DNA of 64,000 bases, from the NCBI RefSeq assembly GCF_034119865.1, contig NZ_CP139421.1:3162001-3226000 (forward strand), read 5' to 3'. Every line of letters starts with the position of its first letter. Position 1 is the stretch's first letter. Source of the DNA: Algoriphagus sp. NG3. GTDB taxonomy: Bacteria; Bacteroidota; Bacteroidia; Cytophagales; Cyclobacteriaceae. This document shows positions 12,533 through 30,959 of the stretch, one piece after another. Under the pieces are notes generated by a model. The model saw only the letters and a list, made by a program, of their open reading frames with translations, made no database searches and was not told where the DNA came from. Position numbers and translations under genes: made by a program.

Positions 12533-12553
12533 CATTCTTCAAATCAACTTCTT

Positions 12554-14622: not shown

Positions 14623-14625
14623 TCG

Positions 14626-14690
14626 TATTCTAATCTGACGGCCTGTATTCTAATAAGATCTTAATCCCATCCTTAATCCATTCTAATAAG
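14626..14690 (+). promoter_or_regulatory. Repeat-rich operator region upstream of the UspA-like gene
   Basis: TATTCTAAT occurs at 14626-14634 and 14646-14654, and ATTCTAATAAG is exact at 14647-14657 and 14680-14690. Between them lie two TTAATCC copies 12 bases apart (14661, 14673), the first within a 14-mer shared with 11997-12010. The pattern suggests multiple binding sites for the adjacent PhoB-type regulator. Confidence 0.5.
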
Positions 14691-14732
14691 TCGTAGGTAA
14701 TTTTAGCTCTGTCCAATAAACTAACAGGAATA

Positions 14733-15248
14733 ATGGCTAAAACGATCTTAATACCTACCGATTTCACGGTTGAATCCCTGAATCTTGCAAAAATAGCTCT
14801 ACAGAACAATCAGGATAAAGGAGAATCCCTCAGAATTATACTGGTATATGGGCAATGGGTATCCACATCGATCAATGATTTGCTCTTTTATTCCAAAGCC
14901 AAAGTGCTTGAAAAACTGGAAACTGAAGAATTCAAATCCAGTTGTCAAATGCTTCTTGGGAAATATGAGAATACTATAGAACAAATGTCCATTGACATCT
15001 TTAGTGGGACAAATCAAAATGCATTTGAAAATTACTTATTGGGAAACAAAGTAACTGAGGCATACATCTCCCCCAATTATAAATTCAAACTAAAGAACAG
15101 TAGCAGTTTTGACCTTATCCCTTATTTAAACAAGAGTAAGCTGTCACTCATCAAGGTCAACTGGAAAACTTCAACTATCCTAGATCCAGAAAATTCGAAA
15201 GACGAGCTATCAGCGTTGTTTTTCAACCATGGTCAAATGGCTCACTAA
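14733..15248 (+). CDS. UspA-like universal stress domain protein
   Basis: A 171-residue cytoplasmic protein beginning MAKTILIPTDFTVESLNLAK, the standard first strand and helix of a UspA fold. The glycine-rich ATP-binding loop (GxxGx9GS/T) expected near the end is not visible; the corresponding strand reads LSLIKVNW. It is thus probably a non-ATP-binding, divergent member. It lies 110 bases after the sensor kinase gene, behind a repeat-rich region that looks like an operator, so it is a likely target of the two-component system. Confidence 0.68.
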   Translation: MAKTILIPTDFTVESLNLAKIALQNNQDKGESLRIILVYGQWVSTSINDLLFYSKAKVLEKLETEEFKSSCQMLLGKYENTIEQMSIDIFSGTNQNAFENYLLGNKVTEAYISPNYKFKLKNSSSFDLIPYLNKSKLSLIKVNWKTSTILDPENSKDELSALFFNHGQMAH

Positions 15249-15395
15249 GCATCCGAAGATAAGCCTGAGCCCGTAGTACGCGATACTATTTCGCTTTGAT
15301 TATCAGCAGTCTGTCCAAAAGTTGACTGGCAGTCCCAAAATCTCGCTGTTAGGTAAGTATAGCCATAGAAAGATAGAAAGACAAACTATAAAAAA

Positions 15396-15869
15396 ATGAA
15401 ATTCAATTTATTATACCCTACTTCTTTCTCTCTGGTACTAGGAGTTTATTTTACCTTGCTTTCTTTTCAAGAAAGTCCAGAAATCCAACTGCTCGGTGAG
15501 TGGAAGGAAGTCTCATGGGAATATGAGAAACTGGATTCTCTCATCTCAGATGAAAGCTTTGATTACATGCTGACCGATCATATCAAAAGTCAAATCAGCA
15601 AAAACCTGATTATACATGAAGCTGAAACCTGGAATTTTGTGGATAAACATACTTTGGAGATGAAAAACAACGATACCCAAAACTCCCTAAACTGGACACT
15701 TAAAGGGAGAGGGAACATACTCCAAATCAATGGATCTGAAGGCATCATTGAATACTATGTCATCCAAGAACTGAGCGCTGATCGAATGGTTTTGCATTTC
15801 AGTTTTGACATGCAATTACGTGGAATTGTGAAAATGACATTTGAGCGGTTGAGCGCAATAGAAGCATGA
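15396..15869 (+). CDS. Lipocalin-like exported protein of unknown function
   Basis: A 157-residue protein with a hydrophobic N-terminal signal or anchor (about residues 8-25), then a beta-rich domain opening with LLGEWKEVSWEYEKLD. That opening recalls lipocalin-like domains common in Bacteroidota (GxW near the N-terminus). No catalytic motif is visible. The last four bases overlap the start of the YoaK-like gene (ATGA), so the two are translated from one message. Function is unknown. Confidence 0.62.
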   Translation: MKFNLLYPTSFSLVLGVYFTLLSFQESPEIQLLGEWKEVSWEYEKLDSLISDESFDYMLTDHIKSQISKNLIIHEAETWNFVDKHTLEMKNNDTQNSLNWTLKGRGNILQINGSEGIIEYYVIQELSADRMVLHFSFDMQLRGIVKMTFERLSAIEA

Positions 15870-16636
15870 TCAGCAAACATATCAACCGAACCAACAAGGA
15901 GAATATACAGCTAGGATCACTTACAGCTTTCTCTGCGGGAATGGTAAACGTCATTTCCGTGATTATTTTCTTTGCTTTTACATCCAATGTAACTGGACAT
16001 TACGCCATATTGGCCCAAGAAATCTCCTTTGGCAACTGGTATCAAGCACTGGTAGTCCTAGGGTGGATATTTTTATTTTTTATGGGGAATTTCATCTCCA
16101 ACTTCATTGTAATTAATTTCCGGAATCGAAATGCCTATCTCGCCCATTCTCTCCCTATAATCATAGAAATCCTATGCCTCTTGGCAGTAGGAACTCATAT
16201 ACAATTCTTCTATCAAGAAACACTCTTGGAAACTGAACTGATGGTAAGCGCCATGCTTTTTGCAATGGGAATCCAAAACGGCCTCACGGCTACCATTTCC
16301 AATTCAGCTGTAAAAACAACCCACCTTACAGGGCTCACTACTGATTTGGGAATATTAGCCTCCTTATTTACCAAAGAACAAAACCGTAAGAATCCCGAGC
16401 TGCGGAGGAAGTGGAATTTACTTCTGGCGATTATGTTCTCTTATTTGTCAGGAGGCATTTGTGCTGGGTACATTTATTTGACTATCGCCTATAATGTTTT
16501 TTACATAGTCTGCTTATTTCTGTTGATTGTAATCGGCTATGATTTTTATCGATTAAAAATGGCTTATCTCCTGACCAAAAAACAGCCTTACTATCGAAAA
16601 ATCATCAAGGACACAACAGCACAACTCACTCAATAA
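15866..16636 (+). CDS. YoaK/DUF1275 family membrane protein
   Basis: A 256-residue protein with about six hydrophobic segments. The N-terminal pattern LTAFSAGMVNVIS ... FTSNVTGHYA and the mid-protein AMGIQNGLTATISNSAVKTTHLTG are characteristic of DUF1275. It is an inner-membrane protein of unknown transport role. Start codon and upstream stop overlap (ATGA), indicating translational coupling to the lipocalin-like gene. It converges on the BASS transporter gene 83 bases away; a weak 5-bp hairpin between them is not a convincing terminator. Confidence 0.82.
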   Translation: MISKHINRTNKENIQLGSLTAFSAGMVNVISVIIFFAFTSNVTGHYAILAQEISFGNWYQALVVLGWIFLFFMGNFISNFIVINFRNRNAYLAHSLPIIIEILCLLAVGTHIQFFYQETLLETELMVSAMLFAMGIQNGLTATISNSAVKTTHLTGLTTDLGILASLFTKEQNRKNPELRRKWNLLLAIMFSYLSGGICAGYIYLTIAYNVFYIVCLFLLIVIGYDFYRLKMAYLLTKKQPYYRKIIKDTTAQLTQ

Positions 16637-16719: not shown

Positions 16720-17799
16720 TTACTCATCTACGGGTTTCTTATGCCAATAAGAGGCTAGGATCGATCCTGTCACGTTCATCAACGGCCCAAACACTGCAGG
16801 TGCCAGACCTACCGTGGCGATCTTGCCCATCTCCTTGGCAATTCCTGATGCCAGTCCTCCATTCTGCATCCCCACCTCTATGGCTATTGTTCTACAATCC
16901 TTTTCATCGAGTTTGAACAATCTACTGGACCAATAGCCCAAGGTGTAACCGGCCAGGTTGTGAACCACTACCAGAATGATGAGCAGAGGGCCAATATCCA
17001 AGAGGCTATCCCTTCCAGCTGCCACAATGACCACTAGAATAAGCGCGATCGCCGCCATGGAAATTATCGGCATCAAATCATCCAGCCATTTGGCTTTCCC
17101 CCGCAAGAAATAATTGAACACCAATCCCGCACCTATAGGAATGATTACCATCTTCACTATGCTGAACATCATGTCCATTACATTGATCTCCACAAATTCA
17201 CCTGCAAGCCAGCCCATCAAGAATGGGGTAACAAAGGGAGCCAGCAAGGTAGTCACCGAAGTTACGGTAATGGAAAGTGCCAGGTTTGCTTTAGCCAGAA
17301 AGCTCATCACATTGGAGGCCATACCACTGGGCGAGCAGCCGATCAAAATCATTCCGGCAGCGATCTCCGCAGGAAAACCGCTTGATTTCGCCAATGCAAA
17401 ACCGATAAAGGGCATAATGGTAAACTGACACAATACTCCGATCAAAACGCCTTTGGGCATTTTCACCACACCCAAAAAGTCTTTGATACTCATTGATGTG
17501 CCCATTCCGAACATGATCACCTGGATCAATGGAACAATCAGTGCAGAGAATTTGAACCCATCATACTCTACAAAATACTGCGGAAAATATAGAGCCGTAG
17601 TCACAGACCCAAAAATCATCATGGCATAGGCATAGCCTCTGAGCTTGGGAATCCCTAAAAAAGTAATGGAACATATAAAGAAAAATCCTATCCAGAGGAA
17701 ACCTGCATCTGCAATATCGGAAAAGACGCTGACAGCTAGGGCTGCCAGTAAAAGAACACCAGTAAGGACTGAAAGAGATTTTACGATTTTGGGATTCAA
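16720..17799 (-). CDS. Bile acid:sodium symporter (BASS) family transporter
   Basis: A 359-residue inner-membrane protein with about ten hydrophobic segments. BASS features are GTSMSIKDF after helix 3, GCSPSGMASNV in the crossing-helix region and EVGMQNGGLAS near the C-terminus, which form the sodium and substrate sites. Family members carry bile acids, pyruvate, pantoate or other organic anions. Its position at the 3' end of the locus with two exported enolase-superfamily proteins and two exported RraA-like proteins suggests that it moves the resulting keto acid or a sugar acid into the cytoplasm. Substrate is inference. Confidence 0.87.
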   Translation of the reverse strand: MNPKIVKSLSVLTGVLLLAALAVSVFSDIADAGFLWIGFFFICSITFLGIPKLRGYAYAMMIFGSVTTALYFPQYFVEYDGFKFSALIVPLIQVIMFGMGTSMSIKDFLGVVKMPKGVLIGVLCQFTIMPFIGFALAKSSGFPAEIAAGMILIGCSPSGMASNVMSFLAKANLALSITVTSVTTLLAPFVTPFLMGWLAGEFVEINVMDMMFSIVKMVIIPIGAGLVFNYFLRGKAKWLDDLMPIISMAAIALILVVIVAAGRDSLLDIGPLLIILVVVHNLAGYTLGYWSSRLFKLDEKDCRTIAIEVGMQNGGLASGIAKEMGKIATVGLAPAVFGPLMNVTGSILASYWHKKPVDE

Positions 17800-17837
17800 A
17801 ATATAGAGATTTGGGTGAATGCTAAGAAATCCAGCCC

Positions 17838-17862
17838 GGGAACTAGATGTATGCTAGTTCCC
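17838..17862 (-). terminator. 9-bp hairpin after the first enolase-superfamily gene
   Basis: GGGAACTAG (17838-17846) pairs exactly with CTAGTTCCC (17854-17862) around a 7-base loop. It lies 28 bases beyond the stop codon of the enolase-superfamily gene on the minus strand and before the BASS start. There is no clear U-run, so it may be a processing or attenuation structure rather than a full terminator. Confidence 0.4.
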
Positions 17863-17889
17863 AGGAATATAGATTGGGTTACAAAAAAC

Positions 17890-19374
17890 TTAACTGTAAG
17901 TTCTATCGTGCGAACGCTTATCGTTCCACATATCGGTAGGGGCAAAATAAGAATCATCAGATCGATGCAGGTGGGCTTTCACCACTTCCTCGTTCAGTTC
18001 TATTCCCAAGCCCGGAGCGTCCAGCGGCACTGGCGCATACCCTTTATCAATCATTTTTCCTCCACCAGTCATAGTCACCATATCCTCCCACCATGGAATA
18101 TCCACGGAATGATGTTCGAGCGCAAGGAAGTTTTGGGAGGCAGCGGCGCAATGCACGTTTGCCATGAATGAAACCGGTGTACCAGCTTGGTGCATGGCCA
18201 TACCAATCCCCTTTTCCTCCGCATAATCCGCAATTCTCTTAGTTTCCAAAAGCCCGCCGGATGATGCCAAGTCCGGATGGACAATGTCCACAGCATGGTT
18301 ATCTATAAGATCTTTGAAATACTGGAGCAGATAAATATCCTCCCCTGTGGTGGTAGGAGTGTTTAACGCATCTGTAATTGTTTTATGCTGCTGCCACATC
18401 TGCCAAGGCACCATATCCTCCAGCCAAGCCAAGCGGTACTTATCCAATGCCTGACCAAGGCGTATGCAGTTGTTCAAATCAAAATGTCCATAGTGATCCG
18501 TGGAAATGGGTATATCATAGCCAACCATTCCGCGGACATGATCTACTATTTTGGCAAGTTCATCCAGTCCCTTCTCAGTGATCTGCACACCTGTGAATGG
18601 GTGTGCGGTATTCGCATATGACATATATCCTCCTTGCCACTGGCTTTTCCCCATTTTGAAAATCTCAGGATTAACTATGCAGCCGGGTATATCTATGATT
18701 TCACCTATTGACACATCCATTTTCAGCCAGGTATAGCCTTGCTCCTCAGTCCTGTATTTTATCAGCTTCAATTGCTCCTCTGGAGAATCCGCCTCTGGAG
18801 TGTCAGCATACAACCTCACTGAATCTCTATATCGTCCGCCGAGTAGCTGCCAGGCAGGCACATTGTATGCTTTTCCACAAAGATCCCAAAGTGCCATTTC
18901 CACAGCACAAACACCCCCCGCTTGCCGTGATTGACCTCCAAATTGTTTGATGATTTTGAAGATTTTCTCCACGTTGCAAGGGTTTTCACCGAGTATCCTG
19001 CTTTTCAGCATCAATGCATACTTGGGATCTGCACCATCTCTCACCTCGCCTAGCCCATAAATCCCTTGGTTGGTATCAATCCGGATGATGGCTGTCCCTC
19101 CCATCACATTGGTAAGCGCATATCGTAGATCTGTGATTTTCAGGTCGGAAGGAGCGGAAGCCCTGCGCACATTTTTGGAGGTTTCTGCCAGGGTATCTTC
19201 CATAGACAATCCCATCAAGGCAGAAAGACTCAGCCCACCAAGAGCGGTTTTCTTCAGAAAATCCCTGCGGTTATCAAGAGTAAGGGGATTTTCGATCTCG
19301 GCCTGGCGCTGTGCGGCATACTGCTCCTCTCTGAGTTTGTTTTTATAGATTAGGTCTTGAAGGGTATTTTTCAT
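17890..19374 (-). CDS. Tat-exported mandelate racemase/muconate lactonizing (enolase superfamily) protein, copy 1
   Basis: A 494-residue enolase-superfamily enzyme with an unusually placed twin-arginine motif: about 34 residues precede NRRDFLKK (35-42). Capping domain residues are about 75-200, then the barrel. Metal ligands appear as D293, E319 (WLED) and E345 (TGED); H395 (AMHQAGTP) is the candidate base, with D368 nearby. K218 and D220 sit where the family has K-x-K. The segment is D-H-Y-G-H, so the His of the D-x-H-G-R motif of the galactonate/mannonate dehydratase group is Tyr here. It likely acts on a sugar acid in the periplasm. It follows an RraA-like gene on the same strand. Confidence 0.87.
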   Translation of the reverse strand: MKNTLQDLIYKNKLREEQYAAQRQAEIENPLTLDNRRDFLKKTALGGLSLSALMGLSMEDTLAETSKNVRRASAPSDLKITDLRYALTNVMGGTAIIRIDTNQGIYGLGEVRDGADPKYALMLKSRILGENPCNVEKIFKIIKQFGGQSRQAGGVCAVEMALWDLCGKAYNVPAWQLLGGRYRDSVRLYADTPEADSPEEQLKLIKYRTEEQGYTWLKMDVSIGEIIDIPGCIVNPEIFKMGKSQWQGGYMSYANTAHPFTGVQITEKGLDELAKIVDHVRGMVGYDIPISTDHYGHFDLNNCIRLGQALDKYRLAWLEDMVPWQMWQQHKTITDALNTPTTTGEDIYLLQYFKDLIDNHAVDIVHPDLASSGGLLETKRIADYAEEKGIGMAMHQAGTPVSFMANVHCAAASQNFLALEHHSVDIPWWEDMVTMTGGGKMIDKGYAPVPLDAPGLGIELNEEVVKAHLHRSDDSYFAPTDMWNDKRSHDRTYS

Positions 19375-19510
19375 TGTAAATTGGGTTATTGAATTGTTTG
19401 TTTTTGAATTATTCGTATTGAGGATCTCAACTCCCTGAACCTGAAAAAAAACCTAAGCCATCCCGTTAAATCAAGCAGTAGGATGCCTGTCAGCTTATTG
19501 AATTTCCAGC

Positions 19511-20479
19511 TCAATAGTTCCGCTCTTTTAGGTATTCATCCAGCTCTTGCTTTGTCATCGGTAGTTTCCCAGGATAATTATTCAGCCAATCCAGAAAATC
19601 CTTTTTGATATCCTCTGTCCATTCACTGTCAATCTGTCCCGGAAGATATTTCCCTTCCCGGAGTCTAAGATGGCCAAATTCATCTCTCAGGCCAGTAACC
19701 TCAGAAGTCAACACCAACTCTTCTACCAAATAGGCAGGGATGAAAATCACTCCATACTTCTTCGCTAGAACCACATCTCCCGGAAGTACTGTAGCCCGTC
19801 CAACACGGATTGGTGTATTGATAGAGGTGAGCATCATCTGTTGGATGTAAGATGGATCCTGCCCCTTCATCCAAGCATTAAAGCCTTGGATCTTGGACAG
19901 TCCTTCCTGATCCCGAACAGATCCGTTAAAGATCACCCCGCGCTGGGACTTAGCATAGATCGCATTCCCGAGGTTATCTCCTATCAGTGTGCCATCCACT
20001 ATTTTACCATACCCATCTGCCACATACACATCGCCAGTAGTGAGCACATCTATTGGCCAGGAGTTCGTCCCACCTTTTGGGGCTCTCCCCTCCTTTTCCA
20101 CACCTTGATCCCTAACTTGTTTTTCCAGGTCCGGTCTCAATGGCATATACTGTGCGGTGACTACCCTGCCTGTCATAGCTTCATCGGGAAGCATGATCTG
20201 CCACTCACCTTCATATTGGTTTTGATATCCTTTATTGCGCAATACCCCCCAGGCTTCTTCAATTGAAATATTTTTCAACCGCTCCAAAATAGCGTCTGGA
20301 ACTTTTGGCCTTCCATCAGAAAACCTTTCACCGGTCCAGTCTGCAGTCAATGCCTTGATGTATTCGGGAGATGCACCTACATTTTGCGCAGCGACTGGTT
20401 GGTATAGTGTCAGAAAAAAGGCGGTGGTAAGAACCCCTAAGGAAATTTTAAAGGATGTGATTGGAGAGATTGTACTCAT
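19511..20479 (-). CDS. Exported RraA/HMG-aldolase-like protein, copy 1
   Basis: A 322-residue protein with a Sec signal peptide (hydrophobic 13-26, cleavage near AAQ32). The RraA fold is visible at about residues 140-250: GDNLGNAIYA, then FNGSVRD with Arg189/Asp190, matching the Arg-Asp pair of class II HMG/CHA aldolases, then PGDVVLAKKYGVIFIP. RraA proteins are normally cytoplasmic and about 160-230 residues. This one has about 100 extra N-terminal residues including TGERFSDGRPKVPD, shared with the second copy. It is not expected to be an RNase E inhibitor. A periplasmic aldolase or decarboxylase acting on a keto acid is the working inference. Confidence 0.83.
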   Translation of the reverse strand: MSTISPITSFKISLGVLTTAFFLTLYQPVAAQNVGASPEYIKALTADWTGERFSDGRPKVPDAILERLKNISIEEAWGVLRNKGYQNQYEGEWQIMLPDEAMTGRVVTAQYMPLRPDLEKQVRDQGVEKEGRAPKGGTNSWPIDVLTTGDVYVADGYGKIVDGTLIGDNLGNAIYAKSQRGVIFNGSVRDQEGLSKIQGFNAWMKGQDPSYIQQMMLTSINTPIRVGRATVLPGDVVLAKKYGVIFIPAYLVEELVLTSEVTGLRDEFGHLRLREGKYLPGQIDSEWTEDIKKDFLDWLNNYPGKLPMTKQELDEYLKERNY

Positions 20480-20648
20480 ATTAGGTTGGGTATTTATTAT
20501 TGTTAATTCGATACTCTACAGACTAAGACTTGATACCTAGACAGTAAAGTGATTAAAAACACTCTTTAAATTTTGTATCTGAATAATGGCCCTGGATTTA
20601 AGATATAGACAAGGGATTTTTTGTTGTTTATATCTTTTTTGAAAAGAA

Positions 20649-21923
20649 TTACTCAAAGAAAGGAATGCCTGGAACGGCATGCTTCTTCATCCCCTCCTCA
20701 TTGATTTCCACACCGATTCCAGGTTTTTCAGAAAGGGTAATGAAACTATTCTCTGTTCGTGGCCCATCGTAGATCACGATATCTTTCCACAAATCATCGG
20801 TATCCATATAAATCTGCCATTCCATAATCTGAAAGTTCGGTACTGAGGCACATACATGGCAACTGGCCATTGCTCCAAGGAAGGAAGCGACCATGTGCGG
20901 AGAAAACGGCACATAATACAGATTGGCCAAGTTTGCGATACGCTGACCCTCACCTAGACCACCCGCTTTCTGCAGATCAGGCATAATGATATTCAAGGCT
21001 CCATCAGACAATAATTTAGTGAACCCGTAAGCGAGATAGATGTTTTCGCCAGCACAGATTGGAGTGCTCGTCTCTTGGGTAATGTGCTTATAAACCTCTG
21101 GGTTATCCGCGGGAATTGGCTCTTCAAGGAACATCAGGTTTAAGGGCTCGTACAGTTTAGCCATTTTCATCCCTGTGACGGCATCGTATCTACCGTGCAT
21201 ATCCACACAGATATCAATATGTGGACCTACCTCCTCACGCACAGCAGCGATGGCATTGTACATCCGATCGATTTCCGCTGGACTTGCTGTCCAGTTGAAA
21301 CGGTCATATTTATTAGGATCCCTACCGTCGTCCACATCAAATTTTACTGCATTATAGCCCTTAGCCACTGCCCCCCGGGCAGCCTCAGCATAATCATTGG
21401 GAGTTGGATTGGTAGAAGTATAAAGTGCAGTATCGCAATAGACGCGGATTTTGTCCCGGAATTTTCCTCCCAGAAGCTGGTAAACCGGCACGCCAAACAC
21501 CTTTCCTGTTATGTCCCAAAGAGCTGTTTCGATAGCAGTCAATACCGCCACAAAAACTCCTGACTGTGCTCCTCCAAAAAATGCCCCTTTGCGGATTTGT
21601 TCTGCGAGTCTATTAGGGTTTAGCGGATTTTGACCTCTCAACATCCTGCCCATCCGCTGTATCATATAATAGGTCCCATGTATAGCGTCCACAGCTTCTC
21701 CGCATCCCCAGACATCCTGATCAGTATAGATTTTCACATAAACCGCCCCTCTCACATAGCCACATTTTACATCTGTGATTTTAAGATCCGAGGGATTGGA
21801 GTAGGGATTTTGTTTTGCGACAGCTTCATTTAATCCGGCAAAAGTGCCCATCAGCCCAGCTCCTGCCAAGCCGGCAAATGTACTTTTTTGAAGAAATGAT
21901 CTTCTTGAATTTTTAGGTTTCAT
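20649..21923 (-). CDS. Tat-exported mandelate racemase/muconate lactonizing (enolase superfamily) protein, copy 2
   Basis: A 424-residue protein with a standard Tat signal (SRRSFLQKS at 6-14). The barrel has metal ligands D241, E267 (FLEEP) and E293 (AGEN), H243 in DMHGR, D316, and H343 in FSPHMVASF. The D-x-H-G-R motif with the second His is the arrangement of galactonate/mannonate-type sugar-acid dehydratases, where both His act in dehydration. K194-x-D196 occupies the K-x-K position. The likely product is a 2-keto-3-deoxy sugar acid in the periplasm, a plausible substrate for the RraA-like neighbours. Start is fixed by the Tat signal. Confidence 0.9.
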   Translation of the reverse strand: MKPKNSRRSFLQKSTFAGLAGAGLMGTFAGLNEAVAKQNPYSNPSDLKITDVKCGYVRGAVYVKIYTDQDVWGCGEAVDAIHGTYYMIQRMGRMLRGQNPLNPNRLAEQIRKGAFFGGAQSGVFVAVLTAIETALWDITGKVFGVPVYQLLGGKFRDKIRVYCDTALYTSTNPTPNDYAEAARGAVAKGYNAVKFDVDDGRDPNKYDRFNWTASPAEIDRMYNAIAAVREEVGPHIDICVDMHGRYDAVTGMKMAKLYEPLNLMFLEEPIPADNPEVYKHITQETSTPICAGENIYLAYGFTKLLSDGALNIIMPDLQKAGGLGEGQRIANLANLYYVPFSPHMVASFLGAMASCHVCASVPNFQIMEWQIYMDTDDLWKDIVIYDGPRTENSFITLSEKPGIGVEINEEGMKKHAVPGIPFFE

Positions 21924-21957
21924 AGGCTATTTTTGGTTTATCATTAAGTAAAAAGAG

Positions 21958-22890
21958 TTACCATGTTCGCTCTTTCAAGATCTCTTGGATTTGCTCTCTA
22001 GCAATGGGGAGCTCATCAATATGTGCCTCAAGCCATTGTGAAAAATCCCTTTCGATGTCATCAGACCATCGGGTATCAATATCGCCGGCAGTGTATTTAC
22101 CTTCCCGGATTCTCTGGTGGCCAAACATATCCCTCAAGCGAACTACCTCGGAGGTAACCACGACTTTTTCTGCCAGATGTGCGGGTATAAATGAAACTGC
22201 CCCGTCTCTTCCCAAAACTATATCCCCTGCCATAACCGTAGCCTGACCTATCCTTGTAGGATGATTGATCCCAATGAGCATAGTATTTAGATCTCTAGGC
22301 TGATTATGATGGGAAGGGTGATAAGTCCGGTAGTACGATGTAAATCCACCAATTTCCTTCAACCCAGGAATATCCCTCACCGCACCATTATACACTATCC
22401 CATTTCCTGAATTGGCATAAATGGCATTTCCTACGTTATCACCGATCGTAGGCCCTCCGTCATGGATCCCAAACTGATCCACTACATATACATCTCCCTG
22501 CACCAGCAGATCTACTGGCCAGACATTCTGCCCTTTCTTACCTTCTGCTTTACCCCTGGCATCTATAGCTCCGTGGATATCAGGTCTGCCCGGCATGAAA
22601 GTCGCCGTCAAGGCTCTGCCTACAAGAATACTGTCGGGATTGATCATTTGCCATCCATCGGCATATTGGTATTTGTAGCCTGCATTTTTCATCACTGCCC
22701 AAGCTTCATCATGGGTCACAATTTTCATACGCCTCAATAGATCATCTGAGACTTTGGGCCGCCCATCTTCAAATCGCTCCCCACTCCACTCTTGGGTGAG
22801 AAAAATCATTTCTTCTCTGGAAATCCGTTGGGCAGAAGATTCTATCATAAAAAACAATAGAAACAATAGGGTTATATAGGTTCTGTTCAT
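21958..22890 (-). CDS. Exported RraA/HMG-aldolase-like protein, copy 2
   Basis: A 310-residue paralogue of the other RraA-like gene. It has a Sec signal (hydrophobic 7-16, cleavage after SAQ21). The shared N-terminal block reads SGERFEDGRPKVSDD (36-50). The RraA core contains IGDNVGNAIYA, YNGAVRD (Arg172/Asp173) and AGDIVLGRDGAVSFIP. The common catalytic Arg-Asp pair suggests aldol cleavage or decarboxylation of a keto acid. The gene is first of the enzyme group behind SusD, separated by a terminator-like hairpin. 34 bases separate it from enolase-superfamily copy 2. Two copies beside two dehydratase-like genes suggest two substrates or two steps. Confidence 0.83.
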   Translation of the reverse strand: MNRTYITLLFLLFFMIESSAQRISREEMIFLTQEWSGERFEDGRPKVSDDLLRRMKIVTHDEAWAVMKNAGYKYQYADGWQMINPDSILVGRALTATFMPGRPDIHGAIDARGKAEGKKGQNVWPVDLLVQGDVYVVDQFGIHDGGPTIGDNVGNAIYANSGNGIVYNGAVRDIPGLKEIGGFTSYYRTYHPSHHNQPRDLNTMLIGINHPTRIGQATVMAGDIVLGRDGAVSFIPAHLAEKVVVTSEVVRLRDMFGHQRIREGKYTAGDIDTRWSDDIERDFSQWLEAHIDELPIAREQIQEILKERTW

Positions 22891-22910
22891 ATTGGAATAT
22901 AACTAATATT

Positions 22911-22943
22911 AAAAAAACCAAGCCCGGATTTTCCAGACTCGGT
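22911..22943 (-). terminator. Terminator/attenuator-like hairpin between SusD and the enzyme genes
   Basis: On the minus strand ACCGAGTC (22943-22936) can pair with GGCTTGGT (22924-22917), 8 pairs including two G-U, around an 11-base loop. Seven T residues follow (22917-22911). It lies 8 bases past the SusD stop and 20 bases before the RraA-like start, suggesting that transcription is reduced after SusC/SusD. Confidence 0.5.
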
Positions 22944-22950
22944 TCTATTC

Positions 22951-24468
22951 TTATTTGTCCCACCAAACTTTGGTGGCAAGATTATCAGGGCCTTGCGTAG
23001 AAATAGCAGCTTGGACATTTTCTGAATTCACGGAAATCTCAGAATTCGGATAAGTCAATCGATTGATAAATTCCACTTCTTTACCAGGGTAGGGATTTGG
23101 TGCCAATTCCGGATAACCAGACCTCCTGAAGTTAGCAAAAGCTTCAGGTCCATTCAGGAAACTGGAGACCCAGTATTGGGTATTGATCTGTTCCAGAGCA
23201 TTTGAAGCATCAAATGGGTTTCCCTGAAGATATCCGTTAATATCCGAAGCATCTATAACAGATTCTTCATCTATTGTACCCAGCTGATTCATGTGCGCAC
23301 GGACTCCAGCGTTGTAGTATTCCTCCACAGTCCCCGTACTGATCCATCCTCTCTCTCTAGCTTCAGCCATCAGCAGGTAATTTTGCGAAGCTGTCACAAG
23401 GAAGTTAGGGGCGGTATTCTTGGTTACTCTTCTCCTATCGGCCTGGGCAAATTCATAAAAACTCACAAGACCTAAATCCGAAGCTGCTTTGACAGCACCG
23501 GCATTATCATTACCCATAGGAATCCCCACCTGAATAGCTGCCTCATATGATTCATTAGCCGGAGTCTGCTCAGGCCCGGACTTTGCACCAACATAAGTCA
23601 CGGCGATAGCGGACAATCTGGGATCGTTTGTGTTTTTTAGATAGTTTACAAACGGCTCAGTAAGGTAGAAATTGGAAGCCTCGGTTGCATTCAGAAAATT
23701 GCCGATTGGGTTAGTGTAGTTAGGGTCGTGGCGGATAATTGCATTATCAGAATTTGCCAGGATCACTCCACCCTGTACAGCGGATTGTACCACCTGTTCG
23801 GCTCTACTGGGATCCACTTTGCTCAATCGCATTCCTGCTCTCAGCAATAGGGAATACCCAAAACTTCTCCATTTCTCCACATCTCCCTGATAAAGAATAT
23901 CTGCGGACTCTAGGGTGCCTGACTCATTCAGAGCAGCAGTGGCTTCGGTCAATTCCTTGATCAAATCCGCATAAATAGCCTCTTGAGAGTCATATACGGG
24001 CAGGTAGATCTGATCCGAGTACCCTTTGCCTCCTTCGAAGTAAGGAATGCTGCCGTAATCATCAGTCAACACCATAAAGGCAAATGCCTGGATAATCCTT
24101 GTCATTTCCTTTAAGTTGGATCGAGTTTGATTTTCTTCCAATCTAGTGATGACATCCCGTGTGTTTTTGATGACATTTCTATAATATCCCTGCCACAGCT
24201 CCTGAGTCAAAGTTCTGTTATCTTGGTTATAATTGGCTCCTGAGACTAGTCCGGAATTAGGTGTGACTATCTGCTGTACCACCCCCATATCATAGACCAG
24301 AGATCCATTTGGATAGGCACAGCCTACGATGGCAGCATTTAACTGAAATACAGGATCAATGGATGTAGCGCTTACTTTATTGGTATTCAACTCATCAAAA
24401 TTGCTGTCGCAAGCCGATGAATACAGTACCACAAGTATAATCAGTAGGTATTTAGATATCTTTTTCAT
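22951..24468 (-). CDS. SusD/RagB-family nutrient-binding outer membrane lipoprotein
   Basis: A 505-residue surface lipoprotein. The signal ends in a lipobox with Cys20 (SSACDSNFDELN). The N-terminal block (VFQLNAAIVGCAYP, then MGVVQQIVTPNSG) belongs to the SusD-like 2 family (PF12771 type) rather than classical SusD. TPR-like helices fill the middle and the C-terminus contains NRLTYPNSE, usual in this family. It caps the SusC channel and binds the ligand before uptake. It lies 11 bases after the SusC gene and so belongs to the same message. Its ligand is unknown but is likely the substrate of the exported enzymes downstream. Confidence 0.92.
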   Translation of the reverse strand: MKKISKYLLIILVVLYSSACDSNFDELNTNKVSATSIDPVFQLNAAIVGCAYPNGSLVYDMGVVQQIVTPNSGLVSGANYNQDNRTLTQELWQGYYRNVIKNTRDVITRLEENQTRSNLKEMTRIIQAFAFMVLTDDYGSIPYFEGGKGYSDQIYLPVYDSQEAIYADLIKELTEATAALNESGTLESADILYQGDVEKWRSFGYSLLLRAGMRLSKVDPSRAEQVVQSAVQGGVILANSDNAIIRHDPNYTNPIGNFLNATEASNFYLTEPFVNYLKNTNDPRLSAIAVTYVGAKSGPEQTPANESYEAAIQVGIPMGNDNAGAVKAASDLGLVSFYEFAQADRRRVTKNTAPNFLVTASQNYLLMAEARERGWISTGTVEEYYNAGVRAHMNQLGTIDEESVIDASDINGYLQGNPFDASNALEQINTQYWVSSFLNGPEAFANFRRSGYPELAPNPYPGKEVEFINRLTYPNSEISVNSENVQAAISTQGPDNLATKVWWDK

Positions 24469-24479
24469 GGCTAGTTGGA

Positions 24480-27400
24480 TTAAAATTTGACATTCAGATT
24501 GAAACCTAATCCTCGCGTGGAAGGGAGGCCTGTTGACTCCATTCCCACCAGATTATCTGAGGAGTAACCGAATGATTCTGGGTCGATATTGTCCACCCAT
24601 TTCTTGATCATGAATACATTGTTGGCCACAAAGTTCAGCTTCACTGATTTGAATGGCTGGTTTTCGGGTAAATGCTTAGTGAAATCATACCCCAATGTAA
24701 TCTGCCGTAGCTTCCAATATCCTCCATTGTATATCACCGGCTCCACCAGTGCTTGGGATCTCACGATTTCCCAATAGGATTGTACAGGTGCCACCACTGT
24801 ATTGGTTTCACCAGCTTCATTTACGCCATCTCCCACTACTCCACCTTCTCTTCCTTCCAGTGTCATTTTATGAAGTCCATGACGGACAGCGTTGAAATTA
24901 GTACCGGAAAGCATGGTATTTCCAAGTTTGAAATCAATCAAAAATGACAACATCACTCCTTTATAGTTAAAGGAATTGTTGACACCGCCTACCCAATTAG
25001 GTAATGCACTACCGAAATTCACCATATCATTAGTCCTGAGAGGCAATCCATTAGCTCCAAAAATCTTACGCCCTTGCTCATCTCTTTTAAAGCCAAAACC
25101 TGCTACCTGTCCCATTTCCATTCCCACTATCTGACGCAATTCCCCGTTGAACACATGAGTACCAACAGTGATCCTTTCCCCGGGTGTGTCTGTGAGCAGG
25201 CTGAGTACTTCGGTCACATTATAGGCCGCATTGAAGGTGGTCTCCCATGTAAAATTGCTATTCTCCATAGGCACCAAAGTCAAAAGCATCTCTACTCCTT
25301 TATTAACGCTTTGCCCGCTATTGATGGAAGTATTTACAAATCCACTCGCATCCGAAATCTGCGCACTCACGATCTGATCCGTGGTAAGCTTGCGGTAAAA
25401 AGCCATGTCCAGACTGACTCTACTTTGAAACATCGCCAACTCGAAGCCTACCTCAGCTTCTCCTATTCGCATAGGCCTCAGATTAGGATTGGGGAGGTTG
25501 GTACCTGTGGGGCCACCTACCGGCTGGCCGCCAAACAGATTGTTGTTAATCCCATAGAAAAGCACATTGGAATATGCCCCCACGTCCGCATCACTACCTA
25601 CCTCTGCATAAGCAGCCCTGATCTTACCAAAATTCAACCAACCGGAGGTAGAATAGTTCTCCGCAAACACCCAGCTAGCGGATACCGAAGGATATAAAAT
25701 ACTTCTATTTGCCTTGGACAGGGTAGAGAACCAGTCATTTCTAATTGTACCTGTAAGGAAGAATTTGTCCTTAAAGGAAAATTCCGCAGATCCATAAAGT
25801 GAATTTACTGCCCGTTCATTGAGATCGTAAAGGGGATCTTTGGCTCTGCCATTTTGTACAGTATATAAGTCCCGGACGACAAAATCGGTCACTTGGACAC
25901 TATTCAGTTCAGATCTACGCTGCATATGGTTGCCACCAAAATTGGCGTTGACCCTCAAGTCCCCGAATTCTCTATTGGCATTGATAAGGAAGTCTGTATT
26001 AATCTCCCTAAATCTTCGCTGCTCCTGGGTGTACATGCCATTCACGAAACCTTCAGGTGCTTCCGCTCTAGAGGCTTGTCCAGTGGGAAAGTTGTTGTAA
26101 TCCTGGTCTCTAGACCAAAAATCCTCCCCCACTCTACCTTGTACAAACAACCAATCGTTGATCTTATACTTCATGGCCACGTTTCCGAAAATACGATCCC
26201 GTTTTATATTCTGAAACTGATCAGAGAGTGTGAAATAAGGGTTTGTACGGTTTCTGAACCTGGAATAGACCGCCTCATTTCCATTGGCATCGTAGCGGTT
26301 GTCCCGCAACACATCGAGTGGCATGGAGTTGGCCATATTATATAGAGCCACCGGAATGGTATTATCCTGTTCCCCGATATTAGGCGGATTGGTGTTTTTT
26401 TCGAAGGAATAATTAAAATTCCCACTGAAACTGAATTTAGGAGAAAGCTCATAGCCAAACCCCAGATTGATTGTCTTTCTGTTATAGGAGTTATTAGGAA
26501 CTATTCCCTTACTGTTAAGATCTGAAAAGGATAAACTAAGCCCTCCTTTTTCGGTAGAAGTAGCCAATGTTACCGAGTTGGTAACATTTTGTCCATTACG
26601 GAAAAAATCATTGACGATTCCTCTCACAGGCTCGTATGGAACTGTAACACCATCAAACAGCATCTGCGTCATTCCTGGTTGGAACTTCTCTCCGAAAGAC
26701 CATTGTCCTGAAGTAGGGTTTGGAGTGGTAGGTCTTACGCCCTGCTCTCCCTGGCCATATTCATATTGATAATCCGTAAAATCCAGCGGTGCTTCATTGG
26801 TATAATTAAGATTATAAGTCACACCTATTCCTTTGGTATCGTTTTTACTCTTGGTGGTAATCATGATGACGCCATCCTTAGCACGGGAACCATATAGAGC
26901 TGCTGCAGCAGCACCTTTCAGAATTGTCATGGATTCTACGTCATCAGGGTTGATACTGGAAAGTCCATCTCCTCCATCCGAAGTATTGCCTCCTCCTCCG
27001 CGAACACCAATACCACTGTCTGAAGCATTATTACCCGGCTTTGAACCAAAATTAGTGTTGTCGATCGGGACACCATTCACCACAATCAGGGGATTGTTCT
27101 GGCCTGAAATAGAGGATTGCCCACGGATTCTGATTTTAGAGGTACCTCCAGGACCGGATCCTAGAGAGGAAATATTCACGCCCGCAACTTTTCCCTGAAG
27201 GGCATTCATCACGTTGGGAGTCCTATTGACAGTAAGCTCTTCTGACTTGACCGTGGACGTAGAATAACCTAGACTTTTCGCCGACTTCTCTATACCAAGT
27301 GCAGTCACCACCACTTCTTCCAGATTACTCTCATCTACTTGCATGCTCACAGAGATGACAGTCCTATTACCTACCACTACTTCCTGATCAACATACCCGA

Positions 27401-28013
27401 CAAAAGAAAACACCAACACGGAATTTTCATTTTCCACATTAATCAAAAAATCGCCTTGGGCATCTGTAACTGTACCTGTCGAGGTTCCTTTCAGCAGTAC
27501 ATTTACTCCCGGAAATCCTAGACCGTTTTCATCCGTCACGTTTCCTCCGACTTGGATTCTTTTCAGCTGAACTTTATTTCTGTTTGTTTCTAAATTGGAT
27601 CTACCAGACATAAGGGGGCCGCCAGGCCTAGTGTCTCCTGCTATGGGTCCAGAAGCGGCAATTCCGGAGTTTAAACTGGATTTTTTAGGTGAAATTATGT
27701 AAAAACGTTCTGCTGCCTTTTCATATTTCAATCCAGTGCCTTGCAAAATCACTTCGAGACCTTTCTCCACTGACTTGAAGGACTCTTGTTTGATTTTGAT
27801 TTTCTTGGTACGTACTACCTCATCTTGGTAGGCGATAGAGACATGGAAATCCTGCTCTAACCGACTTAGGCTTTTTTGTAAATCATCATAGGTTTTGCTG
27901 GGTTCTCCAGCAGTGTAAGTAGTCCGCCCGGATGCAATTAATTCCGCTCCTTGCGCCAGCGCATAGAACGAAATCGAGCAGCCTATACACATGAATAGTA
28001 ATAGCTTTTTCAT
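24480..28013 (-). CDS. SusC/RagA TonB-dependent outer membrane receptor with STN domain
   Basis: A 1177-residue outer-membrane transporter. In order: signal peptide (1-20), secretin/TonB short N-terminal (STN) domain at about 45-115, a carboxypeptidase-regulatory-like repeat (VTDENGLGFPGVNVLLKG), a plug with VVVTALGIEKSAKSLGYS and VMNALQGKVAGVNI, then a 22-strand barrel ending in LNVKF. The STN domain lets the receptor signal through the FecR anti-sigma protein encoded 43 bases upstream. Uptake is powered by TonB-ExbBD; two tonB genes occur elsewhere in this window. It is the first gene of the transport/enzyme set. Confidence 0.95.
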   Translation of the reverse strand: MKKLLLFMCIGCSISFYALAQGAELIASGRTTYTAGEPSKTYDDLQKSLSRLEQDFHVSIAYQDEVVRTKKIKIKQESFKSVEKGLEVILQGTGLKYEKAAERFYIISPKKSSLNSGIAASGPIAGDTRPGGPLMSGRSNLETNRNKVQLKRIQVGGNVTDENGLGFPGVNVLLKGTSTGTVTDAQGDFLINVENENSVLVFSFVGYVDQEVVVGNRTVISVSMQVDESNLEEVVVTALGIEKSAKSLGYSTSTVKSEELTVNRTPNVMNALQGKVAGVNISSLGSGPGGTSKIRIRGQSSISGQNNPLIVVNGVPIDNTNFGSKPGNNASDSGIGVRGGGGNTSDGGDGLSSINPDDVESMTILKGAAAAALYGSRAKDGVIMITTKSKNDTKGIGVTYNLNYTNEAPLDFTDYQYEYGQGEQGVRPTTPNPTSGQWSFGEKFQPGMTQMLFDGVTVPYEPVRGIVNDFFRNGQNVTNSVTLATSTEKGGLSLSFSDLNSKGIVPNNSYNRKTINLGFGYELSPKFSFSGNFNYSFEKNTNPPNIGEQDNTIPVALYNMANSMPLDVLRDNRYDANGNEAVYSRFRNRTNPYFTLSDQFQNIKRDRIFGNVAMKYKINDWLFVQGRVGEDFWSRDQDYNNFPTGQASRAEAPEGFVNGMYTQEQRRFREINTDFLINANREFGDLRVNANFGGNHMQRRSELNSVQVTDFVVRDLYTVQNGRAKDPLYDLNERAVNSLYGSAEFSFKDKFFLTGTIRNDWFSTLSKANRSILYPSVSASWVFAENYSTSGWLNFGKIRAAYAEVGSDADVGAYSNVLFYGINNNLFGGQPVGGPTGTNLPNPNLRPMRIGEAEVGFELAMFQSRVSLDMAFYRKLTTDQIVSAQISDASGFVNTSINSGQSVNKGVEMLLTLVPMENSNFTWETTFNAAYNVTEVLSLLTDTPGERITVGTHVFNGELRQIVGMEMGQVAGFGFKRDEQGRKIFGANGLPLRTNDMVNFGSALPNWVGGVNNSFNYKGVMLSFLIDFKLGNTMLSGTNFNAVRHGLHKMTLEGREGGVVGDGVNEAGETNTVVAPVQSYWEIVRSQALVEPVIYNGGYWKLRQITLGYDFTKHLPENQPFKSVKLNFVANNVFMIKKWVDNIDPESFGYSSDNLVGMESTGLPSTRGLGFNLNVKF

Positions 28014-28056
28014 GCTTAAAGGGTTTGAGGTTATTTGGGGAAAATTTCATTTTGGG

Positions 28057-29067
28057 TTATTTAATCAAGTACTCGTTATTCTCTTTTGTCAGCTCCACAT
28101 TGAAAATCAGAGCGATCTGATGGAGAAATGAATCTACATCTGTCAATGGCATGGATCCCGAAGCGGTCAAGTGTAATGCATCTCTATTTTGAACTTCTAT
28201 GACAACCCCGTAATTATCCTTGGCCATTTTCACCATATCTGCCAGGCTGGTATGCTCCAGGTTCAGAATATTATCTTTCCATGAAGTATATAGTGAAGTG
28301 TTTACCTTTTCTCTTTGGAACTGGCTATTCTTAAACTTGACCAGATCACCTGGTTCCATTACTATTTTGCCTTCTTTCTCTTCCACCGGAAAGCTGAGAG
28401 TGACTAAGCCGGAATTGAGTATAACTTCAGTCTCTTCTGCACGGTTATACACATTGAATTCAGTCCCTAGCACCTCGATTGTCACCCCCTTGGAGCTCAG
28501 TACGCGAAATGGCTGATGATCTACTTTGTGTACCACACTGAAAAATGCCTCCCCCTCAATTGTGATCTCCCGAACGGTCTGTTCTTCCCAGTTGTCAGAG
28601 TAAGTAAGTCTGGAATTAGAATTGAGTTTGACCGTGGAGCTATCAGGAAGTGTGATATCGAGTGTTTCCCCGTAATCGGTCACAAACTCTACTTGTCTCG
28701 GAAGCATTAGCCAATAACCCGTAGCGACAGAAAATAAGACTGCCAGTATTCCCGCCGCCAATTTCCAACTGCGCTTTTCCGTCCTAAAAATCTCAAAGGG
28801 TTTTTGTGGCAAATCCACTTCCTCTTGAATCTGACTCCAAACATCCTGCAATTCCGACGGGGACAATTCTTCCCTGGAGTATTCCAATGACAAGACCAAT
28901 TCCCTGGCGTCGTCCACAAATGGTGTTTTTTCAGGATTGGATTCCAACCATCTCATCCAAAACTCGTCATGTTCGGGTGTTGGATAAAGTACCCATTCCT
29001 TGAAAAAAGGATCGAAAGTAAAGTCCTCTACGGAAAATTTTTGGTAATCGGGATGATGAAAAGTCAC
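28057..29067 (-). CDS. FecR-family anti-sigma/sigma regulator
   Basis: A 336-residue single-pass inner-membrane regulator. The cytoplasmic N-terminal 100 residues should bind the sigma factor. One transmembrane helix lies near 104-126. The periplasmic FecR domain follows (FVTDYGETLDITLPDSSTV, then EGEAFFSV and ITIEVLGTEFNVYN-type motifs), and a C-terminal STN-like DUF4974 domain ends the protein. It starts at GTG. It receives the signal from the STN domain of the SusC receptor and releases the ECF sigma factor encoded upstream. The poly-T/poly-A stretch between the two genes is not a clear terminator. Confidence 0.92.
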   Translation of the reverse strand: MTFHHPDYQKFSVEDFTFDPFFKEWVLYPTPEHDEFWMRWLESNPEKTPFVDDARELVLSLEYSREELSPSELQDVWSQIQEEVDLPQKPFEIFRTEKRSWKLAAGILAVLFSVATGYWLMLPRQVEFVTDYGETLDITLPDSSTVKLNSNSRLTYSDNWEEQTVREITIEGEAFFSVVHKVDHQPFRVLSSKGVTIEVLGTEFNVYNRAEETEVILNSGLVTLSFPVEEKEGKIVMEPGDLVKFKNSQFQREKVNTSLYTSWKDNILNLEHTSLADMVKMAKDNYGVVIEVQNRDALHLTASGSMPLTDVDSFLHQIALIFNVELTKENNEYLIK

Positions 29068-29144
29068 AGGCTCTTGATTAGTATTATGACTATAAGAGCC
29101 AAAGCCTAATCAATCCTCATCATTTTTTTTGTTTTTTTTTTCGG

Positions 29145-29735
29145 TCAGATAATTACCTTCATCGCCTGAAGAGCCTTTGAGATCAAATTATGTGCAGAAG
29201 CGGAACTAATACCCATCATAGCAGAAATCTCAGAGTAGCTCATTTCATTGAAAAACCGAAGGATCACTATTTCCCTCTGCCGTTTGGATATTTTTTCTAA
29301 GGCTGAGGCGACTTTAGACTTGTTGGACTTTAGCAAATCCATGGCAATTATTTCCTCTTCCTTGGATATTTCCCCGCACGAAAAATTGCTTTCAGTTGGC
29401 TCGCTGGTGAACTTTCTATCCTTGTTGATTTCTTTGATCAGGATATTCCTGAAAGATTTGAAAAGGTAATATTTCACCGAATCTACACCTGGAAGGGAAG
29501 TTCTTTTCTTCCATAGCCAAGTAAATAGCTCTTGAATACAATCCTTTACCAAATCTCTATTGTAACAAATATGCATTCCATAGTTAAAAAGTGGATTGGC
29601 ATATCTGTTATATAGCGTGGAAAACGCCAGGTTGTTCCCTTTGTATAGACTTCTCCACAATGCTTGGTCGTCAGCACAGGCATCCTTTGTTGATTTTGAA
29701 CTATTTGAAGTCAAAAGATTCACATGATCACCCAT
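29145..29735 (-). CDS. ECF RNA polymerase sigma-70 factor
   Basis: A 196-residue extracytoplasmic-function sigma factor of the Bacteroidota SusC/FecR-linked type. Region 2 is seen around FSTLYNRYANPLFNYGMHICYNR and FTWLWKKRTSLP (core and -10 binding); region 4 around ISKRQREIVILRFFNEMSYSEISAMMG, a helix-turn-helix for -35 recognition. It is the first gene of the minus-strand locus and is expected to switch on the SusC/SusD and enzyme genes when the ligand is sensed. The partner anti-sigma FecR gene starts 77 bases downstream. Confidence 0.93.
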   Translation of the reverse strand: MGDHVNLLTSNSSKSTKDACADDQALWRSLYKGNNLAFSTLYNRYANPLFNYGMHICYNRDLVKDCIQELFTWLWKKRTSLPGVDSVKYYLFKSFRNILIKEINKDRKFTSEPTESNFSCGEISKEEEIIAMDLLKSNKSKVASALEKISKRQREIVILRFFNEMSYSEISAMMGISSASAHNLISKALQAMKVII

Positions 29736-29819: not shown

Positions 29820-30959
29820 CTAACTCAACAATCCTGCAATAAAAAAACCTGCATATGTCCCCACAGCATTTCCCAAACTACCCACCAGAACTCCGGGAAT
29901 CAGAAGATCAGGACGGTTAAGACTCTCTGCAGATGCCAGGGCAGTGGTATTTCCACCCACATTCGCCTGGGAAGCTACGGCGATTATATCCCAATCTATT
30001 TTGAGAAGCGCACCTAGCCCAAATATCACCAGCCCATGTATGAGCACGACTAAGCCTACAAAAACAATCAAAGTACCCGCTAAATCCTCTAGTCCCGACA
30101 AGGTGCTCAGATCGCACAATGTACCTATGGTGGCAAGGAAGATCAGAATCAGAAAAAAACCTATGGTCTGTGTCCCTGAGATCCCTCTGATAGAAGGGAT
30201 CTGAGCCAGAATAAGAGCAATGGTGGTAAGAATGATGATTTCAGGAATCCTGGGAAAGGATAGATAAACCAACTTGGAAATAGCCATAGCCAAAAATGCC
30301 AAACCAAGAATTGCCGCCAAGCCAGCTATACTGAGTGATTCTTCTGCTTTTATTTTTTGAAGCTCTTTTGACTCGTCAATCAGTTTTTTTCGCGGGAAAA
30401 ACCGTTGCAAATATTTTGGCAAAATCAAACTAGCAATAATCCAGGGAGTCCCGATCAGGTTATCCACTACAGTGGTCGCGGCATATAGATCCGCCTGCTC
30501 ATTGACTTTAAAACTCAGTGCGATAGCATTGAAATTTATACTTCCCCCGATATATGTCCCTGTATACATTCCTGCAACTGCGTTAGCCATAGAGCCTATC
30601 TCTGACCCAGGCTCTACTACAAACCAAGCCACCAACACCCCGATAATGGTGCCCACAGCTCCCAGTCCGAACATCAGCAAAATCGGAGCCCCTACTTTTT
30701 TCAGGCTACTCAGATCCACTTCCAGCAGGGCTATGAAAATACCCATAGGTGCCAGGTAAACAAAAACTCCGGTATAAATAGGATTACCGCTGGTTGCTGC
30801 GGGCATCACTCCGATGTTTGCAGCAATAGCAGTTATTATAATTACTAAAATGGGAGTGCCGATAATGCGAAGCCCTTTATACTTGGACAGCCATACAGAG
30901 AACAGTACAACTATGCAAAGCATACCACTGACGTACATAGGGTCTTGAGTCCAAGTCAT
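29820..30959 (-). CDS. DUF819 family integral membrane protein
   Basis: A 379-residue protein with about ten hydrophobic segments and the DUF819 signature blocks: GTYIGGSINFNAIA in the middle, and SQANVGGNTTALASAESLNRPDL and GSLGNAVGTYAGF near the end. These duplicated Gly/Asn-rich re-entrant-like segments resemble those of sodium-coupled transporters, so a transport role is likely, but no substrate is established. It is the last gene of a minus-strand set, 8 bases after the DegT-like aminotransferase gene. Its stop codon lies close to the promoter region of the sigma factor gene. Confidence 0.85.
   Translation of the reverse strand: MTWTQDPMYVSGMLCIVVLFSVWLSKYKGLRIIGTPILVIIITAIAANIGVMPAATSGNPIYTGVFVYLAPMGIFIALLEVDLSSLKKVGAPILLMFGLGAVGTIIGVLVAWFVVEPGSEIGSMANAVAGMYTGTYIGGSINFNAIALSFKVNEQADLYAATTVVDNLIGTPWIIASLILPKYLQRFFPRKKLIDESKELQKIKAEESLSIAGLAAILGLAFLAMAISKLVYLSFPRIPEIIILTTIALILAQIPSIRGISGTQTIGFFLILIFLATIGTLCDLSTLSGLEDLAGTLIVFVGLVVLIHGLVIFGLGALLKIDWDIIAVASQANVGGNTTALASAESLNRPDLLIPGVLVGSLGNAVGTYAGFFIAGLLS

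Follow-up and report, generated by a model that had tools for sequence, protein, structure and literature searches.

A gene cassette of Algoriphagus sp. NG3 as a candidate extracytoplasmic dehydratase-aldolase route for sugar acids in Bacteroidota

A 64,000-nucleotide stretch of the genome of Algoriphagus sp. NG3 (contig NZ_CP139421.1, positions 3,162,001 to 3,226,000; hereafter the window) carries on its minus strand a cassette of nine genes that could encode the uptake and breakdown of a sugar acid outside the cytoplasm. In the direction of transcription, the cassette opens with an extracytoplasmic function (ECF) sigma factor (window positions 29145..29735), a FecR-type anti-sigma factor with a GTG start (28057..29067), a SusC/RagA TonB-dependent transporter with an N-terminal STN-like region (24480..28013) and a SusD-like lipoprotein (22951..24468). 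A terminator-like stem-loop of 15 pairs with a T tail (22914..22946) is followed by four enzyme genes: RraA2 (21958..22890) and RraA1 (19511..20479), which encode RraA-fold proteins, alternate with MRe2 (20649..21923) and MRe1 (17890..19374), which encode proteins of the mandelate racemase (MR) group of the enolase superfamily. The final gene, with a TTG start, encodes a BASS-family (SBF) carrier (16720..17799). Intergenic spacing within the cassette is 11 to 169 bases. The Pfam matches (SBF; MR_MLE_N/C twice; RraA-like twice; SusD-like_2; TonB plug and CarbopepD_reg_2; FecR; sigma70 r2/r4) and the coordinates agree with the gene order given by an earlier reading of the DNA letters (the sequence-only reading). 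The genome is a single contig of 5.89 Mb, in which RraA1 and RraA2 are the only PF03737 (RraA family) genes; the cassette holds two of the seven MR_MLE_C matches, another being enolase itself, and one of the five SBF matches. Algoriphagus supplies the nearest named homologs of RraA1 among the matches listed.

All four enzymes bear export-type leaders, in agreement with the sequence-only reading, which had assigned each a Sec or a twin-arginine translocation (Tat) signal. The leader of MRe2 contains RRSFLQK; MRe1 has RRDFLKK after a leader of 35 residues, which is long by the standard of Tat signals. The N-termini of RraA1 and RraA2 are hydrophobic and end in VAA-Q and SSA-Q. An alignment of 13 RraA proteins was used to scan named genomes for relatives and gave at least 578 confirmed stretches; the best 80, chosen by similarity to mostly paired genes, were kept as the '80 named loci' (single loci are given L numbers below). 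Leaders were called by a simple home-made heuristic, which is different from SignalP and flags membrane proteins too. On this measure, 117 of the 118 MR open reading frames (ORFs) of the 80 loci have a Tat-type leader and 115 of the 119 RraA ORFs a Sec-type leader, some of the misses being cut or mis-started ORFs. Moreover, the arginine pair, together with the phenylalanine two positions later, is kept in 44/44 aligned MR proteins. When applied to families expected to be cytoplasmic, the heuristic flagged no AraC (0/15), aldehyde dehydrogenase (ALDH; 0/11), FAH (0/10), IlvD (0/10) or TypA (0/5) protein, one of 13 FGGY kinases, one of 12 SDR proteins and three of six UxuA proteins. None of the other MR genes of this genome that were read has a Tat leader, the reading frame of one of them being ambiguous.

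The two MR proteins differ at the catalytic centre. The residues D241-x-H243, E267, E293, D316 and H343 of MRe2 form a set that we take to be of the galactonate/mannonate dehydratase type, and relatives of MRe2 keep it: D-x-H and both metal-binding glutamates are present in 83/83, the metal ligands in 83/83, and the aspartate and histidine of the dyad in 81/83 and 82/83 (one gap). In MRe1-type proteins the metal ligands D, E and E and the His-Asp dyad are present in 37/37 and the DxH histidine in 0/37, its position being taken by Y, F or W in 35 and by T in two; MRe1 itself reads D-H-Y-G-H there. Since MRe1 is without this histidine, the 'two dehydratases' of the sequence-only reading are less secure; the assignment is better founded for MRe2, with its full catalytic set, than for MRe1, and one dehydratase plus a relative appears the safer description. 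MRe1, whose fold is supported by a structure model, could instead be an epimerase or cycloisomerase, leaving one dehydratase in the cassette, a suggestion that we rate only a little short of even and that is compatible with the explanation preferred below. The retained metal site and dyad beside a replaced histidine are in keeping with it, and two cycloisomerases appear among the structural matches of MRe1, one for 3,6-anhydro-D-galactonate and a proposed one for galactarolactone; however, these stand among many matches titled as putative dehydratases, and 2qq6 is the nearest solved structure of both MRe1 and MRe2.

Both RraA proteins of the window have the RraA fold, supported for RraA1 by a structure model, and both contain a D-x20-R-D motif (D168-x20-R189-D190 in RraA1), presumably that of class II pyruvate aldolases; the role of its first aspartate is likewise our assumption. 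Over the 119 RraA ORFs of the named loci, the arginine and the aspartate that follows it are present in 119/119 each and the first aspartate in 108/119, divided into 79/79 RraA2-type and 29/40 RraA1-type ORFs. Secreted RraA1-type proteins with serine or alanine at this position come from nine loci (11/64 proteins in another alignment), and each of these loci save L165 has an RraA2-type copy as well. The D/R/D of RraA aligns with the D/R/D of the HMG/CHA aldolase 3noj. In the HMG/CHA aldolase, Arg-123 serves to stabilise the pyruvate enolate, and Asp-124 and Glu-199 are metal ligands, as far as the available part of the source describes it (PMC5065237). RraA1 and RraA2 are candidate Mg-dependent class II pyruvate aldolases.

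The pairing of MR and RraA genes is non-random. Within the genus, RraA matches were found in 16 of 36 genomes (the window genome included), two in each, and the order RraA2-MRe2-RraA1-MRe1-BASS was kept in all ten of the longer stretches read (10 of the other 15). An ECF-FecR-SusC-SusD set lies directly upstream in six of these ten; one ends at a contig edge and three have no adjacent set. In the 80 named loci, an MR gene lies within 1.5 kb of an RraA gene in every case, and the two are on the same strand and less than 400 bp apart in 78; the sequence-only reading had named, as what would count against it, RraA-like genes that never adjoin enolase-superfamily genes, and the reverse is found. 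A BASS gene is present in 43 of the 80, within 1.5 kb in 41. In 20 control stretches there was no RraA, MR or BASS gene of the cassette type. An evenly drawn sample of 247 genomes of the phylum offers a less biased test. RraA matches occurred in 18 of these genomes, four of which have only distant, unsignalled RraA proteins; of the 14 with secreted-type RraA, an MR gene is the neighbour in 11, and a DgaE-type gene takes its place in three. Among the matches listed for this sample, 18 of the 19 MR matches with E<=8.8e-85 have an RraA match within 5 kb, the exception being a contig-end fragment, as compared with 0/18 of the weaker MR matches (E 1.5e-74 to 2.1e-63).

The three sampled genomes with a DgaE-type neighbour (loci L159, L160 and L162), together with L175, combine a secreted RraA1-type RraA and a BASS gene in a setting that lacks MR. 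A deacetylase scores 457.9, 451.4 and 418.4 bits for NF006689 (cut-off 371) in the first three loci and is recognised by similarity in L175. The heuristic also flags a Tat-type leader on the DgaE-like pyridoxal phosphate lyase of L159, L160 and L162. RidA-type proteins accompany L160, L162 and L175; that of L160 passes PF01042, and those of L162 and L175 match the L160 protein at 45 to 48%. In a tree of 71 RraA proteins with a known partner, the four DgaE loci occupy three separate positions, and three switches of partner are required by branches with good support, the tree leaving the direction of change between DgaE and MR unsettled. DgaE-type ammonia lyase chemistry yields a 2-keto-3-deoxy acid, and these loci look like an extracytoplasmic route for amino sugar acids. 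Both front ends, MR on the one hand and deacetylase plus DgaE-like lyase on the other, should then deliver 2-keto-3-deoxy acids; the front-end enzyme changes while the class of product stays, which gives the strongest reason to expect such acids as the substrates of RraA. UxuA-type proteins also occur beside secreted RraA, in L161, in three further loci (L168, L040, L052) and in six Spirosoma loci, and in all of these MR is present too. In L161, both UxuA-type proteins have Tat-type leaders.

Neighbouring genes give some indication of substrate, and sugar-acid genes adjoin the loci of many relatives, which fits the sugar-acid context claimed by the sequence-only reading. The families, each named from one representative and picked from the same loci, so that their counts are descriptive, include FGGY gluconokinase-like (below cut-off), FAH, ALDH, GntP, SMP-30, UxuA, GH67, glucuronoyl-esterase-like and an IlvD/EDD dehydratase that scores 862.3 bits for arabinonate dehydratase, just under the cut-off of 882. 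At least one such family is present in 35/80 named loci as against 2/20 controls, and two or more in 24/80 as against 0/20. These neighbours point to aldonates and glucuronates, and do not fix the substrate in Algoriphagus. The six Spirosoma loci all join RraA2-MRe2 to UxuA; GH67 is present in five, a sugar-acid-type MFS transporter in five and a glucuronoyl-esterase-like gene in two, which hints at acids from glucuronoxylan and perhaps 4-O-methyl-glucuronate.

The upstream half of the cassette brings a SusC signature, SusD, FecR and an ECF factor together in a single run, that is, a SusC/SusD system with ECF/FecR. The sigma factor scores 82.1 bits for TIGR02937 (cut-off 42.9) and 98.5 for TIGR02985 (below the cut-off of 126.4), FecR 55.5 bits for PF04773 and the SusD-like_2 protein 276.8 bits for PF12771. 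For SusC, the earlier assignment stands at 636.4 bits for TIGR04056; its STN domain reaches only 25.2 bits, under the curated cut-off of 28.4, and is probably real, since two of four relatives score above the cut-off (31.3 and 32.3; the others 28.2 and 22.0). On visual reading, the stem-loop between SusD and RraA2 has the same form in four related loci (L023 to L026), and different hairpins occupy the site in two others (L028 and L029). A stem-loop scan of the region gave nine sites against 13.5 expected from shuffled sequence, fewer than chance, so the case for this stem-loop is one of conservation. With such a terminator-like element in between, the enzyme genes may be expressed below the level of SusC/SusD. 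At the other end, the carrier belongs to the SBF family (PF01758, 137.6 bits) and falls under the cut-offs of TIGR00841 (239 bits; cut-off 326.3) and PanS (229.1 bits; cut-off 400).

Outside the cassette, a gene for a DUF819 membrane protein, a possible further transporter, lies upstream of the ECF gene (29820-30959, minus strand) and adjoins the cassette in six related loci. Past the BASS end, a response regulator, a histidine kinase and small genes occupy 12110-16636 on the plus strand, a position kept in three.

The gene content, leaders, pairing and residues described above come from the sequence, and the folds of RraA1 and MRe1 from models; every reaction, substrate, transport step and regulatory link of the cassette is what we infer from them. 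In the scheme proposed, SusC/SusD would carry a sugar acid, or an oligomer bearing one, over the outer membrane, and SusC occupancy would be signalled through FecR to the ECF sigma factor, as the architecture suggests. In the periplasm, Tat-exported MRe2 would dehydrate the sugar acid to a 2-keto-3-deoxy acid, which the Sec-exported RraA proteins would cleave to pyruvate and an aldehyde, most likely as Mg-dependent class II aldolases. The BASS carrier, with sodium, would import the 2-oxo acid, either pyruvate made from the keto-deoxy acid or the keto-deoxy acid intact, to the cytoplasm, and MRe1/RraA1 would be a further pair, whose probable task is another stereoisomer or an isomerisation that feeds MRe2. 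That the cassette is such an extracytoplasmic, non-phosphorylative route from a sugar acid to pyruvate we judge to be evenly balanced between right and wrong. More tentatively, and with the balance tilted against it, Bacteroidota may possess a general extracytoplasmic Entner-Doudoroff-like module in which an exported RraA aldolase and BASS are served by exchangeable exported front ends: an MR dehydratase, or a deacetylase with a DgaE-type lyase and often RidA, UxuA-type proteins occurring only beside MR. The periplasmic dehydratase-aldolase route of the sequence-only reading is supported in part, by the leaders, the pairing and the residues of MRe2 and RraA, and is weaker in its second dehydratase, MRe1. 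It would be a known type of pathway shifted outside the inner membrane, and wider than that reading saw.

Several observations weigh against this proposal. All four enzymes fall short of the NCBIfam equivalog cut-offs for dehydratases and aldolases: MRe2 and MRe1 score 247.1 and 168 bits for PRK14017 (cut-off 311), and the RraA proteins 51.0 and 23.2 bits for the aldolase model TIGR02798 (cut-off 304.5). MRe1 is without the DxH acid histidine, and serine or alanine replaces the first motif aspartate in 11/119 RraA ORFs. The DgaE-like lyases, at 163 to 201 bits for TIGR01437 (cut-off 385.3), are relatives only; the RraA leader of L160 goes unflagged by the heuristic, a Sec-like stretch being seen by eye from its second methionine; and L162 and L175 are near-copies (RraA 307/316 identical), so that the DgaE loci are three independent cases, not four. 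Both MR and DgaE are missing from three of 24 further loci with secreted RraA, one of the three being on a short contig. The only characterised RraA of the phylum that was found, FlDet of Flavobacterium sp. UMI-01, does other keto-acid chemistry, being, on the part of the source available, an RraA-fold KDGR dehydratase/decarboxylase (PMC8563752), and for this reason the aldolase step is one that we infer. Finally, in L069 the BASS gene is followed by genes for KdgK and 2-keto-3-deoxy-6-phosphogluconate (KDPG) aldolase, and L161 has both of these close to its cassette, which indicates that intact 2-keto-3-deoxygluconate may be imported and a periplasmic aldolase be redundant there.

This last observation also supports an alternative that is unlikely and yet deserves weight, in which BASS imports the MR product intact, RraA is accessory, and cytoplasmic KdgK and KDPG aldolase, or an FAH dehydratase and alpha-ketoglutarate-semialdehyde dehydrogenase, finish the pathway. 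FAH genes are present in 10/80 and ALDH genes in 11/80 named loci, an ALDH representative scoring 127.9 bits against a cut-off of 770 for alpha-ketoglutaric semialdehyde dehydrogenase, and the window genome has elsewhere two matches resembling KDPG aldolase (identity 44 and 37%), an ALDH of this kind (50%) and an FAH gene. However, the FAH gene belongs to the genus core (56/59 genomes) and its presence is independent of the cassette, only one of the 80 named loci has KdgK close to the cassette, and an accessory role would not need an arginine and aspartate that are kept in every one of the 119 RraA ORFs.

A less probable alternative, which we doubt, is that RraA acts like FlDet, as a dehydratase/decarboxylase that turns 2-keto-3-deoxy-aldarates into alpha-ketoglutarate semialdehyde, the substrates being aldarates. 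FlDet itself, which has this fold and comes from a Flavobacterium (PMC8563752), provides a precedent. Unsignalled RraA proteins of 237 to 247 residues occur at L154 to L157, in four genomes of one family (f25), and are probably of FlDet type, a call made from gene context and not by comparison with the FlDet sequence. A chondroitinase-B-family (PL6-like) gene is present in L155 and L157, a gene resembling 2-keto-3-deoxygluconate kinase in L155 and an ALDH in L157. The ALDH of L157 adjoins both the unsignalled RraA and the PL6-like gene and is 59% identical to the ALDHs found at 11 of the 80 named loci, a link that favours FlDet-like chemistry. Against it, these proteins lack a signal in 4/4 cases, are only 22 to 26% identical to RraA1, form a fully supported branch of their own and have serine for the first motif aspartate in 3/4. 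That the RraA proteins are regulators of RNase E, independent of their neighbours, is hardly credible given their export-type leaders, conserved residues and near-obligate pairing with exported enzymes.

If the proposed periplasmic route is correct, sugar carbon-carbon bonds would be cleaved to pyruvate in the periplasm, with no use of ATP or phosphorylation. A group of environmental Bacteroidota, represented by the 14 of 247 sampled genomes with secreted-type RraA, would cut sugar acids before the inner membrane, sparing phosphorylation and keeping reactive aldehydes outside, and a function would be at hand for proteins labelled 'RraA family', 'regulator of RNase E activity' or '4-hydroxy-4-methyl-2-oxoglutarate aldolase'. 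No description of such an exported module was found in searches of an open-licence paper library.

Dehydration followed by aldol cleavage is a known cytoplasmic way of breaking down sugars in central metabolism. The D-glucosaminate route employs DgaE, an ammonia lyase, and an aldolase, and resembles the DgaE-type loci, where a deacetylase and a DgaE-like lyase stand beside the aldolase candidate; those loci differ in their export leaders and in that RraA stands where the aldolase would be. MRe2 shares the catalytic residues that we take to be those of the D-galactonate and D-mannonate dehydratases of the MR group, and is set apart from them by its sub-threshold PRK14017 score and its Tat-type leader. 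The HMG/CHA aldolase serves aromatic catabolism, is about 20% identical to the RraA proteins described here and, in the part of the source available, is mentioned with no export leader (PMC5065237). FlDet shares with them the RraA fold, the phylum and a 2-keto-3-deoxy sugar acid as substrate, whereas, according to the same partial source as above, it acts in an alginate context as a dehydratase/decarboxylase (PMC8563752), and the FlDet-like proteins here are unsignalled and lie on a separate branch. The fucose and rhamnose routes of SAR202, as far as the accessible text describes them (PMC10444878), are similar in having an MR-group dehydratase and a later step on a 2-keto-3-deoxy acid, with no kinase in the cassette; the Algoriphagus cassette differs from them in its export leaders, its SusC/SusD pair and its aldolase candidate, which is of the RraA fold and not of COG3836.

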